The notes under the pieces were generated by a model, which worked only from the letters and a program-made list of their open reading frames with translations, was not told the origin of the DNA and ran no database searches. From assembly GCA_016218715.1 (NCBI GenBank), contig JACRDG010000122.1, positions 1-64,000 on the forward strand: DNA of 64,000 nucleotides, given 5' to 3'. The DNA is from Desulfomonile tiedjei. GTDB taxonomy: Bacteria > Desulfobacterota > Desulfomonilia > Desulfomonilales > Desulfomonilaceae. The position numbers were made by a program, and so were the translations under genes. This document shows, piece by piece, positions 4,229-28,046 of the stretch (the first letter of the stretch is position 1; each line of letters starts with the position of its first letter).

Positions 4229-5230
4229 CTATTCGAGCTTCTTGTACACGTTGAGCCCGATCTTTTCTTCTCTCCCAAACACGAGTTGGTTCCCCTCGGT
4301 GGAACCGATGATGACGGTCTTTCCCGATTTCGAGGGTCCCTTTTCTTTGGATAGATCCACGGTAATCTTCAGCTCATCGCCATGCAGGTCCATCTCGACG
4401 TTGTTGAACGAGCTTTTTCGCCCTTTGCCGGTCTTTTTCCCTTCTTGCCGGTAGATGTTGAGCCCCACCTTTTCCTCTCTGCCGGGAACGGACTTGTTCC
4501 CCTCCGTGGAGGCCACGATGATGGTTTTGCCTGATTTCGACGGCCCGAAGTCCTTGGACAGGTCGATGACCAGCGTGAGCGTATCCCCTTCCACGGCCAT
4601 GTCCACGTTCTTCATCCCCCCGCGGCGGCGTTGGGGAGTCGAGGCATTCAGCGGCGGAACTGCTCCACCCTGGCCCGCTTCGCTCGGTTGAAACGCGGCT
4701 TGTTCGAGCGAGAGCGTCCCATTACCGGGAGCGTTCGACGGATAGGCCAATTGGATCACCGCGCACGACTCATTGAGGAGTAGTGCCTTCACTTCGTCCG
4801 AGATGTCCAGGAGGGGGGCCAGGTCCTTTTCCATGATTTTACCCGGATTCCACCCTGATTGTTCGAGCCATGCCTGCAAGGCACCCTTGCTTTCCCGTGG
4901 CTGCTCACCGATAACCCGGAGGGCCTCGCGTACGAAAGCTCTCGCCCGGTCGAAGTCCTGGAACCACTCAAGGAAGTGATTGATGATCGTCATGACCTCG
5001 CCCATTTTGTCCGCGTCGATCATCCCTGTTTCGGGTTCCGTGATCATGTGCTTCCACTTAGCAGGGGTCGGCTCGCCTTCTTCTCGATAGTAATTACGAA
5101 AGTCTTCGGCACTGACGAAGAATTCGAATCCGTCTTCCGCTCGCACCCGGAAGGGAGAGCTCGAATCATCCGTGAGTTCAACCAGAAGCCCTGGCCGAGT
5201 TCCGAGAAATTGCTGGTACTTTGTTACCAT
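4229..5230 (-). CDS. uncharacterised protein with tandem-duplicated C-terminal domain
   Basis: A 333-residue soluble protein. Residues 1-65 form one domain (MVTKYQQFLGTRPGLLVEL, then FEFFVSAEDFRNYYRE). A Pro/Gln-rich linker near 165-205 leads to two copies of a roughly 56-residue domain at 207-262 and 276-331. Each copy has an NV-[DE]-M start, an [IV]DLSK strand, GPSKSGKT, then STEGN and GREEK[VI]GLN[IV]Y. GPSKSGKT formally matches the P-loop pattern GxxxxGKT, but no Walker B is visible, so nucleotide binding is doubtful. A strong AAGGAG precedes ATG 5230. I cannot assign a function. Confidence 0.8.
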   Translation of the reverse strand: MVTKYQQFLGTRPGLLVELTDDSSSPFRVRAEDGFEFFVSAEDFRNYYREEGEPTPAKWKHMITEPETGMIDADKMGEVMTIINHFLEWFQDFDRARAFVREALRVIGEQPRESKGALQAWLEQSGWNPGKIMEKDLAPLLDISDEVKALLLNESCAVIQLAYPSNAPGNGTLSLEQAAFQPSEAGQGGAVPPLNASTPQRRRGGMKNVDMAVEGDTLTLVIDLSKDFGPSKSGKTIIVASTEGNKSVPGREEKVGLNIYRQEGKKTGKGRKSSFNNVEMDLHGDELKITVDLSKEKGPSKSGKTVIIGSTEGNQLVFGREEKIGLNVYKKLE

Positions 5231-5549
5231 GCGGTCTCCTTTCCAAAATTCGGGGGGTCATCATATAGCAGTCTTCCCAGAACGTCTATACCGGACCACG
5301 CGACCCGCGCGATTCGTTTCCCACGGCCCTGCAGGACAGGTAATCCCTAAGGGCTTGCGGACAATGATCTTTTTGCCTCGCAGACTTCCCGTCTTGAAGT
5401 TCGAGCCTAAAACTCGTCCATAACAGTCTATTTCCTATTGACAATCAGGATGGCGACTTCTACCAATAGACCGATGAGGGGCTCGGCCGCGACCCAGGTC
5501 GAAAGACCGCCTCTCACGGCTGAGCGAATCATGGTTTCAGGAGTGGAGC
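5231..5549. other. divergent intergenic region, no gene
   Basis: The 319 bp separate the minus-strand gene ending its leader near 5245 from the acyl-CoA dehydrogenase. I see no coding signature. TTGACA at 5439-5444 is a possible -35 for the plus-strand gene, but no good -10 stands at the right distance. Confidence 0.4.
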
Positions 5550-6701
5550 ATGGACTACCTGCTGACCGAAGAACAAAAGATGGCCCGAGACATGGCCCGT
5601 AGGTTTGCCGATAACGAGCTGAAACCTATAGCGGATCGACTCGATCGAGAGCACACCCATTCGCCGGAAGTGCTCCAACAGCTCGGAGAAATGGGGATAA
5701 TGGGCGTGGCAGTCCCCGAGGAATACGGCGGTGGGGGGATGGACTACGTCTCGTATTCGCTTATTGTGACGGAGATCTCTCGCGCGTGCGGAGGCACCGG
5801 CACCATTGTGGCCGCGCACAACTCGCTCTACTGTTACCCGGTCCTTAAATTCGGTACCGAGGAACAGAAGCAGAAGTTCCTCCAACCCTGCGCGTCGGGC
5901 CGCTCCGTGGGGTGTTACGCGCTCACGGAAGCGGATGCGGGGAGCGATCCGGCAGCCCTGCGTACCACCGCTCGGCTCGACGGCGACTCCTGGGTGATCA
6001 ATGGGGAGAAGAAGTTCATCTCCAATGGTAATATCTCGGATTACTGCGTGTTTGCAGCGGTGACGGACAAGGCGAAGGGGTACAAGGGGATCAGCCAGTT
6101 CGTGTGCGATCTCCGCGAAACCCCCGGTTTTAAGGTCGGCCGCGTCGAGGAAAAACTCGGAATCAACGCGTCCGGTACCGCGGAACTCGTCTTCGAGGAT
6201 GCCCGGGTCCCGAAAGACGCGATTCTGGGAGAACCCGGGGCGGGTCTCCGGCAGATGCTGGAAACCCTGGACAGCGGCAGGATCAGCATTGCATCCCAGG
6301 CGCTCGGCATTGGCCGCGCAGTGCTCGAAGAATCCATCGAATATGCCAAGACCCGAGTTCAATTCGGAAAACCCATCGCGGAGTTCCAGGCTATCCAGTG
6401 GAAATTGGCTGACATGGCGACTCAGCTCGATGCCGCGGCGCTGCTCATCTGGCGGGCCGCGTGGCTCGAAGATCACGACATGCGTTTCGAGATGGAAGCG
6501 GCCATGGCCAAGATGTACGCGTCCGATGCCGCGATGCACGCCGCATTGGAAGGGGTCCAGATACTCGGCGGGTACGGCTACGTCCGGGACTACCCGATGG
6601 AAAGACACTTCCGGGACGTGAAGATCACGCAGATATACGAGGGGACGAACGAGATCCAGAGGCTCGTCATTGCCCGCAATATACTGGGAAAACGCGGCTG
6701 A
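5550..6701 (+). CDS. acyl-CoA dehydrogenase (short/branched-chain type)
   Basis: A 383-residue flavoprotein that oxidises acyl-CoA to enoyl-CoA and passes electrons to an electron-transfer flavoprotein. Its length is normal. Signatures: GIMGVAVPEEYGG near residue 50, the FAD/substrate motif CYALTEADAGSDPA near 125, ARTRVQFGKPI-like KTRVQFGKPI near 268, and QILGGYGYVRDYPMER followed by IYEGTNEIQR, where the Glu before GTN is the usual catalytic base. It resembles butyryl/isobutyryl-type enzymes; exact chain length cannot be read by eye. meaB starts 34 bp downstream, so the two are probably co-transcribed. Confidence 0.93.
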   Translation: MDYLLTEEQKMARDMARRFADNELKPIADRLDREHTHSPEVLQQLGEMGIMGVAVPEEYGGGGMDYVSYSLIVTEISRACGGTGTIVAAHNSLYCYPVLKFGTEEQKQKFLQPCASGRSVGCYALTEADAGSDPAALRTTARLDGDSWVINGEKKFISNGNISDYCVFAAVTDKAKGYKGISQFVCDLRETPGFKVGRVEEKLGINASGTAELVFEDARVPKDAILGEPGAGLRQMLETLDSGRISIASQALGIGRAVLEESIEYAKTRVQFGKPIAEFQAIQWKLADMATQLDAAALLIWRAAWLEDHDMRFEMEAAMAKMYASDAAMHAALEGVQILGGYGYVRDYPMERHFRDVKITQIYEGTNEIQRLVIARNILGKRG

Positions 6702-6735
6702 ACCCGCGCGCTTTCTAGCTTGAGAGTATACAACT

Positions 6736-7698
6736 GTGCTGGCTGAACGAATCATGCAGGGCGATGTGCGAGCCACGGCCCGGTTGATCCGGCGCATTGA
6801 CGACGGAGAACGGGACGTCTTCACGGAATTGGCCAAGCTCTACCGCCACGCGGGAAAGGCCCATGTAATAGGCTTCACCGGGTCTCCGGGGGTGGGCAAG
6901 TCCACGCTGGTGGACCGCGTGGTCGCCAAGTACCGGGAAGATGGAAAGACGGTCGGTATCCTCGCGGTGGACCCGACCAGTCCGTTCACCGGCGGCGCGA
7001 TCCTGGGCGATCGCATCCGAATGCAGCGACACTTCCTCGACGACGGCGTCTTCATCAGATCCATGGCTACCCGGGGCAAATTCGGCGGTCTCACTCGATC
7101 CACCGCGGATGCGATTGTCGTCCTGGACGCGATGGGGAAGGACGCGATCATTGTGGAAACCGTCGGAGTCGGTCAAGACGAGGTTGAGATCGTGCACAAC
7201 GCGCACACCACGGTTCTGGTGACCGTTCCCGGCATGGGAGATGATATCCAAGCGATTAAAGCCGGGCTCATGGAAATCGGCGACATCTTCGTGGTCAACA
7301 AGGCGGACCGGGAAGGCGCGGGCAAGACGATTCGAGAACTCAAGATGATGCTGCAGATGTCCCTGGAGCGCTATCAAGCCGGAGGGTGGTTTCCGCCGGT
7401 ACTTGAGTCGGTGGCCGCGGAGGACCGGGGCGTGGACGAGCTCTATCGCGCCATCGTAGACCATCGGGCTCATCTCGAGGCGCATAACCGCGACAAGCTG
7501 ATCTCCGTGGAACGGCACAGGGCCGCGAATCAACTGCTGGATCTCCTCAAGGAGAACCTGATGGACACCGCACTGGAACGGCTCGGAGGAACCGATACGG
7601 TGAACGATCTCGTCAACGAGATCGTGGCCCGACGTACGGATCCCTATGCCGCAAGCCAGGAACTGGTCAAACGACTCTTGGGAGGACCTCTCCGTTGA
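6736..7698 (+). CDS. meaB: MeaB/ArgK-family GTPase, methylmalonyl-CoA mutase chaperone type
   Basis: A 320-residue G3E-class GTPase. The P-loop GSPGVGKS spans residues 49-56, DPTSPFTGGAILGDRIRM is the family's long switch segment, VETVGVGQDE follows, and NKAD gives guanine specificity. The family protects and reloads B12-dependent acyl-CoA mutases, so the organism should carry such a mutase elsewhere. The start is GTG 6736 with a weak Shine-Dalgarno. Its TGA overlaps the TTG start of the next gene, and the acyl-CoA dehydrogenase lies upstream: a three-gene operon. Confidence 0.92.
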   Translation: MLAERIMQGDVRATARLIRRIDDGERDVFTELAKLYRHAGKAHVIGFTGSPGVGKSTLVDRVVAKYREDGKTVGILAVDPTSPFTGGAILGDRIRMQRHFLDDGVFIRSMATRGKFGGLTRSTADAIVVLDAMGKDAIIVETVGVGQDEVEIVHNAHTTVLVTVPGMGDDIQAIKAGLMEIGDIFVVNKADREGAGKTIRELKMMLQMSLERYQAGGWFPPVLESVAAEDRGVDELYRAIVDHRAHLEAHNRDKLISVERHRAANQLLDLLKENLMDTALERLGGTDTVNDLVNEIVARRTDPYAASQELVKRLLGGPLR

Positions 7699-26026: not shown

Positions 26027-26070
26027 TTCGTAGAAAATTCGATTGACTTTCGTAAAAGATTCGCCATAAT
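26027..26070 (+). promoter_or_regulatory. lexA promoter overlapped by four phased TTCG motifs
   Basis: TTGACT (26043-26048) and CATAAT (26065-26070), 16 bp apart, make a good promoter 66 bp before ATG 26137. TTCG occurs at 26027, 26038, 26049 and 26060, that is every 11 bp (TTCG-N7 four times), covering the -35 and the spacer. This is the natural place for the LexA operator, but the motif is not one I know as a LexA box. Confidence 0.6.
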
Positions 26071-26136
26071 ATGAGCGATACCGGCTTTGGGAAGCTCCAA
26101 AGTCACGGTTCGCTCAATCTCCTGGAGGACCCGCCG

Positions 26137-26775
26137 ATGCAGCAAACGCCGAAGCAGTCTCTGCCCGCGCTGACGAGAAAGCAAAGACTCGTCCTCGACT
26201 TTATCACCGCGTTCATCGACCGGCACGGCTACTATCCCAGCTACGGAGAAATCGCTCGTGGCATGGGGCTTGCCGCTCAGTCCACGGTGTGCGTGCACGT
26301 CGAGAATCTGCGAAGGAAAGGATACCTCTTCCGGAAATGGAACGCGAAGCGGGCGGGCGAACCGGTCACGGAGCGAACGCTTCCGTCCGCGACGGAGGAC
26401 GTGCCCCTTGCCGGAAGGATTGCAGCCGGTCTTCCCATCGAGGCCGTGCCGGACCATCAAACCATCGGGATTCCTTCCGACATGCTTGGGAAGAACGAAA
26501 CTTATGTGCTCCAGGTGAAGGGCGATTCCATGATCGATGCACACGTGATGGACGGCGATTACGTCATCGTCTCGCGGCAGCAGTGGGCACACGACGGCGA
26601 CATGGTGGTTGCCCTGGTTCGAGGCAGTGAGGCGACGCTGAAGCGGTTCCGACGAAAAAAGGACAAGATCGTGCTGGAACCGGCCAACCCCGAGCACCGG
26701 CCGCAGGTATACGACGAACAAGACGTGACGGTTCAAGGGGTTGTGGTCGGGTTGCTGAGAAAATACGCTCGATGA
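26137..26775 (+). CDS. lexA: LexA repressor
   Basis: A 212-residue SOS repressor. The winged helix (KQRLVLDFITAFIDRHGYYPSYGEIARGMG region, residues 15-70) carries an unusual recognition helix (AAQSTVCVHVENLRRKGYL). The autocleavage site is Ala97-Gly98 (GRIAAGLP), the catalytic Ser is 131 (KGDSMID) and Lys 169 (TLKRF). Start 26137 has GGAGG 8 nt upstream; an earlier in-frame ATG at 26071 abuts the -10 box. Its stop overlaps the dinB start (ATGA), forming an SOS operon. Confidence 0.95.
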   Translation: MQQTPKQSLPALTRKQRLVLDFITAFIDRHGYYPSYGEIARGMGLAAQSTVCVHVENLRRKGYLFRKWNAKRAGEPVTERTLPSATEDVPLAGRIAAGLPIEAVPDHQTIGIPSDMLGKNETYVLQVKGDSMIDAHVMDGDYVIVSRQQWAHDGDMVVALVRGSEATLKRFRRKKDKIVLEPANPEHRPQVYDEQDVTVQGVVVGLLRKYAR

Positions 26776-28046
26776 GGAGAATCACGCGCCCGCGGTACGG
26801 TCGCGGCGCTTCCGGTTCACGCTTCGTGCCACCAAACGCTGAGGTTGCAGTGTCTGCCCTTCCCGGAGAACGATACATCCTGCACGTGGATGCGGACGCG
26901 TTCTTCGCTTCCGTCGAGCAGGTCTTGCGCCCCGATCTCCAGGGGTTGCCGGTCATCGTCAGCGGGGGTGATCGCGGGGTGGTCTCCGCCGCGTCGTACG
27001 AAGCGCGGAGATTTGGTGTGCATTCGGCCATGCCGACTGTCCAAGCCCGGAAGCTCTGTCCTCGGGCGGTGTTCCTCTCTCCCAACTTCTCAGCCTACAA
27101 GGAATTCTCGACCCGCATGTTCGCCATCATGAAGGGCTACTCCCCTCAGGTTGAGGTGACCAGCGTGGATGAGGGATACGTGGATCTGACGGGCACGTTC
27201 AGGCTTCACCGCGCGCCGCCGTGGGAGATCGCCCACCGGATGCTCTCGGAAATAAGAGCCGGGCTGGGGATAAACGTTTCCGGCGGCATTGCGGGGACCA
27301 AGTGTTTTGCCAAGATGACCACCGGCCTGGCCAAACCCAACGGCCTGCTGTATCTGGAACCTCAGCACGCTCGGATCGTGCTGGCACGGCTGCCGGTGGA
27401 ATCGATCCCGGGGGTAGGGAAAAAAGCGGAAGAGATCCTGAAACGCCGGGGCATCATGACCGTCGGGGATGTGGCGGATCTTTCCCGTAGGAGGCTCCAG
27501 CGTCTCCTCGGGAAGTGGGGGGGTGCGCTGTGGGAACTGGCCACCGGTAACGATGGGAGACCGGTGGTCTCGTCTCACCGTGATCCGCAGAAATCCTATT
27601 CCAAAGAGCATACCCTGGAACAGGACTCCAAAGACCTCGGGCACGTGTGGTCCGTGGTCGCCCAACTCACCGAGAAAGTCGCCGCCCGCCTGCGAGCTGA
27701 CGGAAGGGGTGCGTGTACCGTCACAGTCAAAGTGCGGTCCGCGGATTTTTCCGACATGAGCAGATCGATGTCTTTGAAATTCCCAACGAATTTGACCAGA
27801 GATCTCCTCGATTGCGCTGCGCGGCTGTTCCGGCTGACCGCGGGCCGGAGATTCGGGATACGCCAGGTCGGGGTGAAGCTCTCCGGCATCGACGTTCCTG
27901 TCCTCCAAACCGACCTGTTCGAACCCCGCCGGCACATCGCCGCGGCACGGGATCGCACGGTTGACCAGATCCGCAACCGATTCGGATTTCACGCGGTGAA
28001 GATCCTTCGTGGCAGCGGTTACGGTCAGCCTCCTGGGGTAGGTTGA
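26772..28046 (+). CDS. dinB: DNA polymerase IV (Y family)
   Basis: A 424-residue translesion polymerase. Palm motifs are ILHVDADAFFASVEQ (metal Asp) and VEVTSVDEGYVDLT (SVDE), with KPNGLLYL and IPGVGKKAEE (HhH) later. A QTDLF motif near residue 385 is the beta-clamp-binding pentapeptide. About 35 Arg-rich residues precede the usual start; the ATGA overlap with lexA supports this longer form. Expression should follow LexA. Confidence 0.94.
   Translation: MRRITRPRYGRGASGSRFVPPNAEVAVSALPGERYILHVDADAFFASVEQVLRPDLQGLPVIVSGGDRGVVSAASYEARRFGVHSAMPTVQARKLCPRAVFLSPNFSAYKEFSTRMFAIMKGYSPQVEVTSVDEGYVDLTGTFRLHRAPPWEIAHRMLSEIRAGLGINVSGGIAGTKCFAKMTTGLAKPNGLLYLEPQHARIVLARLPVESIPGVGKKAEEILKRRGIMTVGDVADLSRRRLQRLLGKWGGALWELATGNDGRPVVSSHRDPQKSYSKEHTLEQDSKDLGHVWSVVAQLTEKVAARLRADGRGACTVTVKVRSADFSDMSRSMSLKFPTNLTRDLLDCAARLFRLTAGRRFGIRQVGVKLSGIDVPVLQTDLFEPRRHIAAARDRTVDQIRNRFGFHAVKILRGSGYGQPPGVG

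Follow-up and report, generated by a model that had tools for sequence, protein, structure and literature searches.

The lexA-dinB promoter of Desulfomonile tiedjei carries four phased copies of the tetranucleotide TTCG, and this array is very probably the autoregulatory operator of the LexA protein encoded behind it (LexA-A), a putative operator for which we infer both binding and repression. In the window, i.e. the whole stretch of 64,000 nucleotides that was analysed, the copies start at 26027, 26038, 26049 and 26060 of the plus strand and every step is exactly 11 bp, as originally predicted. The array is conserved, specific to lexA-A promoters and overlaps the core promoter of lexA-dinB. 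The features of the locus are:

26027..26063, plus strand: four-copy array TTCG-N7-TTCG-N7-TTCG-N7-TTCG, putative LexA operator (from sequence and from conservation in six promoters)
26027..26041, plus strand: copies 1-2, the pair lying upstream of the -35, which may be the site of a second dimer (copy 1 kept in 5/6 promoters, copy 2 in 6/6)
26043..26048, plus strand: -35 hexamer TTGACT, flanked by copies 2 and 3 (its TTGAC is identical in all six genomes)
26049..26063, plus strand: copies 3-4, pair between -35 and -10 (TTC in 6/6 for both copies; G in 4/6 for copy 3 and 5/6 for copy 4)
26065..26070, plus strand: -10 hexamer CATAAT, after copy 4 (spacer of 16 from the -35)
26124..26128, plus strand: ribosome-binding site GGAGG (from sequence)
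26137..26775, plus strand: lexA (LexA-A), 212 aa, LexA DNA-binding domain and S24 peptidase (TIGR00498, PF01726, PF00717)
26275..26313, plus strand: recognition-helix region of LexA-A, about residues 47-59, AQSTVCVHVENLR (by alignment, the extent following the E. coli LexA fold)
26772..28046, plus strand: dinB (DNA polymerase IV), its start overlapping the lexA stop (ATGA)

Architecture and conservation of the array

The array covers the -35 hexamer and the spacer of the lexA-dinB promoter and is phased on one face of the DNA, which upholds the original prediction. The two hexamers match the sigma-70 consensus at 10 of 12 positions. As in direct-repeat LexA operators, the half-sites have a TTC core, lie in direct orientation and are 11 bp apart. 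The bases preceding TTCG are T, A, T and A, and the array does not have the G directly before TTC in both half-sites that characterizes the alphaproteobacterial box GTTC-N7-GTTC. The inverted repeat GAAC-N4-GTTC, a palindromic box of the Gram-positive type, was not found in the lexA promoter of the window.

Translation of lexA likely starts at the ATG at 26137, behind the GGAGG, and not at the first in-frame ATG at 26071. LexA-A reaches 186.9 bits against TIGR00498 (cut-off 110.95) and also passes the cut-offs of PF01726 and PF00717; alignment with E. coli LexA revealed an intact cleavage site (A97-G98) and an intact Ser-Lys dyad (S131, K169). The dinB gene is the sole PF00817 match in the genome, and the gene order lexA-dinB recurs in two relatives (G003 and G005).

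A run of three TTCG copies at 11-bp steps occurs only at this site in the whole 5.55-Mb genome (two overlapping matches; none in the control). In shuffled versions of the window, such runs averaged 0.025 per window, and none had a run of four. If any 4-mer and any period from 8 to 24 are allowed, about 0.3 four-fold runs are expected per window, so that the array in a single sequence is weak, at most suggestive evidence. It is conservation that decides the question, and the array is not a product of chance. LexA-A orthologs of 57-61% identity are encoded in five more genomes of the family (G003, G005, G006, G010 and G012), and each of the six lexA-A promoters holds exactly four phased copies (for G003, TTTCGCAACAATTTCGCTTGACTTTCGTATTATGTTCG); the prediction, which stood or fell with the presence of the array upstream of orthologous lexA genes, holds in six of six. 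In an alignment of these promoters that was anchored on TTGAC and contained no gaps, conservation in five or all six genomes applies to 15 of the 16 TTCG columns, compared with 4 of the 94 flanking columns (Fisher p = 5e-14; six orthologous promoters). The spacers between the copies are much less conserved than the C and G of TTCG, and none of the six promoters extends the array by a fifth copy at either end. Copy 3 reads TTCT in G010 and G012 and copy 4 reads TTCA in G005; apparently, the full half-site is not required of every copy.

A profile of the element gave one strong match (44.7-51 bits) per genome with LexA-A (6 of the 18 genomes of the family), always upstream of lexA-A, and the remaining matches in the 18 genomes scored 17.3 bits or less. 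A match ahead of an Lrp-like regulator in G012 (L118) was taken as chance. By the same search, the full element is absent from the 12 genomes without detected LexA-A, carriers of a second LexA (LexA-B) among them; since several of the twelve are incomplete, the absence of the LexA-A gene itself is uncertain there. The proposed spread of the motif to other SOS genes was borne out, in the form of a TTCG pair, for recA of some Acidobacteriota (see below) and not for recA in the family of the window: upstream of recA in this family no TTCG-N7-TTCG was seen, as would mark a classical multi-gene SOS regulon, and the profile search of the window genome returned the lexA site only, with no clear copy at another SOS gene. 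The LexA-A regulon may thus consist of one operon. With a loose 16-base pattern and one mismatch allowed, counts in the window genome were near control, and an excess in G005 was due to a repeated sequence (ATTCGGCTGGCTTTCG). Of two pattern matches, L048 and L049, the latter precedes an isoleucyl-tRNA-synthetase-like reading frame. Among plasmids, searches found only distantly related LexAs and no DNA that matched the array promoter.

TTCG pairs in other phyla and known LexA operators

The array had been suspected to be a new operator type and the recognition helix of LexA-A to be unusual, but neither suspicion withstood comparison with other phyla. A GTDB-wide scan was followed up for the best 80 LexA loci, mostly from Acidobacteriota and Patescibacteria. 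TTCG-N7-TTCG is widespread upstream of lexA in these phyla and others: it was present in 40 of 83 related promoters tested, where 0.23 were expected (maximum 2), and in a comparison of spacings from 0 to 20 enrichment was restricted to N7 and its multiple N18. In the relatives the pair usually lies directly after TTGACW and directly before the -10. Most relatives with a TTCG pair share the helix pattern S-x-[AS]-T-[VI]-x-x-H, to which the recognition helix of LexA-A (AQSTVCVHVENL) loosely conforms; the helix is ordinary for the group.

Outside the family of LexA-A, its nearest relatives include the LexAs of Acidobacteriota. In one acidobacterial family, 28 of 29 readable lexA promoters (loci L247-L276) have TTCG-N7-TTCG between -35 and -10, whereas a strict GTTC-N7-GTTC is found in 1 of the 29 and the half-site is usually TTCGC; promoter L255 lies outside the 29 counted, yet has the pair. 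The LexA box of Acidobacterium capsulatum, which resembles the array as an 11-bp direct repeat upstream of lexA, was reportedly described as GTTC-N7-GTTC by Mazon in 2006. In view of the counts above, the GTTC description of the acidobacterial box may be incomplete. Acidobacteriota keep their TTCG pairs with GC-richer spacers and have two, sometimes three copies, one to two below the four of the window. Three copies are seen in several of them, and in two of these TTGAC lies between copies 1 and 2, compared with copies 2 and 3 in the window. A TTCG pair also precedes recA in the Acidobacteriota loci L209 and L211, and a weaker form is present in L224. Many lexA promoters of Patescibacteria have TTCGG-N6-TT[CT]GG between -35 and -10, likewise a TTCG-type direct repeat but with two copies, the second often being TTTG. 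In both phyla the two-copy operator occupies the position of copies 3-4 of the window, to which copies 1-2 are an addition.

On a tree of the LexA proteins the motif is clustered (18 changes of label, compared with 33.6 after shuffling), yet at least 11 changes are forced. Motif and protein thus track each other imperfectly, and a single origin of the motif is unsupported. Upstream of lexA in G042 (L009), the sequence TTCACCTTTTTTTCACC repeats TTCA directly with an 11-bp period and may represent another variant of the operator class to which the array belongs.

Published LexA motifs span palindromes to direct repeats, such as GTTC-N7-GTTC with its 11-bp period (PMC8565304, PMC3323433), and direct-repeat motifs from Balneolaeota, Acidobacterium and Patescibacteria have also been reported or are cited (PMC7739468); for the latter, a passage of that paper cites the LexA of Patescibacteria (Sanchez-Osuna 2017) among those recognising a direct repeat. 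Together with the TTCG pairs found throughout phyla, the published repeats of 11-bp period place the array in an operator class that is already known. The closest known type is, as predicted, the alphaproteobacterial box, a direct repeat with a TTC core and an 11-bp period that overlaps lexA and SOS promoters. In the window, however, the fourth conserved base follows TTC, a leading G is lacking and there are four copies. The Balneolaeota operator, TTACACATATTTTWTACATA (PMC7739468), is also a direct repeat but differs from the array in sequence and length. The lexA promoter of E. coli bears two LexA operators (PMC9210283) and shares with the window more than one operator and negative feedback; its operators are palindromes of the type CTGT-N8-ACAG, unlike the direct repeats described here. 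We found no earlier description of a four-copy array, where elsewhere two and sometimes three copies are usual, in combination with a LexA-dinB module of its own. An array of four appears to be special to the family of the window. Also new is that a genome with this array encodes, beside dnaE2, a second LexA whose box differs and is palindromic.

Proposed repression by LexA-A and competing explanations

From established LexA biology, LexA-A dimers would be expected to bind the TTCG half-sites in head-to-tail orientation, as direct repeats spaced by one helical turn. LexA-A bound over the -35 and the spacer would exclude RNA polymerase, and lexA and dinB, the latter coding for a mutation-prone polymerase, would thereby be held low. 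Upon DNA damage, RecA-stimulated self-cleavage at A97-G98 (S131/K169) would free the promoter, and LexA and Pol IV would rise. What the copy number by itself suggests is that copies 1-2 and 3-4 could take up two LexA-A dimers on one face of the DNA, with the register 2-3 possible too, and that paired sites could act cooperatively and give tighter repression and a steeper switch than a single pair.

A serious, if somewhat doubtful, possibility is that one pair (3-4 or 2-3) is the real operator and the other copies are spare half-sites; one dimer would then slide between registers, and the local affinity would be raised without cooperativity of two dimers. The outgroup operators, with two copies at the position of copies 3-4, fit this explanation, as do the TTCT variants of copy 3 in two genomes and the TTCA variant of copy 4 in one. 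Against it, the number of copies is four, without a fifth, in all six diverged genomes, and the upstream pair is as well conserved as copies 3 and 4.

The genome of the window (G000) encodes three LexA homologues, and this raises the question whether LexA-B, LexA-C or an unrelated protein binds the array instead of LexA-A. The two further homologues are:

Contig C93, L240 7662-8276: LexA-B, followed by a dnaE2-type polymerase (4797-7544)
Contig C11 (6 kb), L239 3726-4373: LexA-C, with neighbour genes without Pfam matches

The promoter of LexA-B contains the palindrome GAGAACAAATGTTTCC. LexA-B promoters bear a different box, of the type GAGAACAN2TGTTCTC, and it is here that the Gram-positive-type inverted repeat, missing from the lexA-dinB promoter, occurs; a search with PF00817 found no ImuB. 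The region ahead of LexA-C holds the palindrome CGAACCG-GACT-CGGTTCG, perfect in its 7-4-7 layout. With 3.71% contamination on record for the assembly, LexA-C may be foreign to the genome, and its contig may represent a mobile element or a contaminant. Binding by another regulator is quite unlikely: the twelve genomes of the family in which LexA-A was not detected, some of them with LexA-B, also lack the element, while G005, rated 99% complete, has the array and gave no match for LexA-B. Moreover, in other phyla TTCG-N7-TTCG goes together with LexAs whose helix is similar.

Helical phasing, AT-rich spacers and the position inside the core promoter would also be expected of a structural element, in which an 11-bp T-rich periodicity serves as a DNA bend or an extended promoter contact and not as a repressor site. 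This is highly improbable, since it is the C and G of TTCG that are conserved and far less the spacers, Acidobacteriota keep TTCG despite their GC-richer spacers, and the pair is found beyond lexA promoters too. A chance repeat, for which only the expectation of runs of any 4-mer per window could be quoted, is practically negligible given that six genomes conserve the array and that N7 is enriched across phyla. An operator of LexA-A remains by far the most probable reading.

A shared promoter of a phage-like cluster

The best secondary match to the profile, TTTCGTATTATTTTCG in G005 (17.3 bits), lies in the promoter of a phage-like cluster that encodes an SU10-like major capsid protein, portal, adaptor, large terminase and an NlpC/P60-like protein, and the only further LexA-B-type palindrome in the window genome sits in the promoter of the homologous cluster:

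G000, contig C108, about 272-285 kb: phage-like cluster (L290, continuing in L291)
G005, contig C1, about 3.897-3.917 Mb: phage-like cluster (L289/L292)

In each of two genera the cluster adjoins the same housekeeping genes. Relatives of it occur in 10 of the 18 family genomes, one in each; it may be a domesticated prophage or an element similar to a gene transfer agent. Six cluster promoters were aligned (L285 of G005, L284 of G012, L280 of G003, L279 of G000, L281 of G010 and L282 of G001). Behind the -10, five of the six have a LexA-B-type palindrome, imperfect in G012. Ahead of the -35, an exact TTCG-N7-TTCG is present in G005 and G012 and a degenerate TTCG-N7-TTTC in G003. Apparently, the cluster is under LexA control. 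In G005, where LexA-B was not found, the palindrome has decayed next to an intact TTCG pair; although drawn from few genomes, two of them in one genus, this observation independently supports the TTCG pair as the box of LexA-A.

LexA operators have changed many times in evolution, and duplication of lexA has been proposed as the cause (PMC8565304). Taken together, our observations lead to a tentative picture, which we rate somewhat short of even. TTCG-N7-TTCG would be a phylum-spanning class of LexA operator that Desulfomonilaceae have expanded to a cooperative lexA-dinB switch of two dimers and four half-sites, and a second LexA, which has a palindromic box, would run a separate dnaE2 module. 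Both modules would converge on a single promoter, that of an SU10-like capsid cluster fixed in the chromosome, and the LexA boxes there would follow the LexA repertoire of the host. Some genomes of the family have two LexAs that differ in operator type and one is without the second LexA, and the boxes of the shared third promoter appear to track this repertoire. This provides a natural series for testing operator swaps, and the four-site array is a compact test of cooperative binding of LexA to direct repeats.
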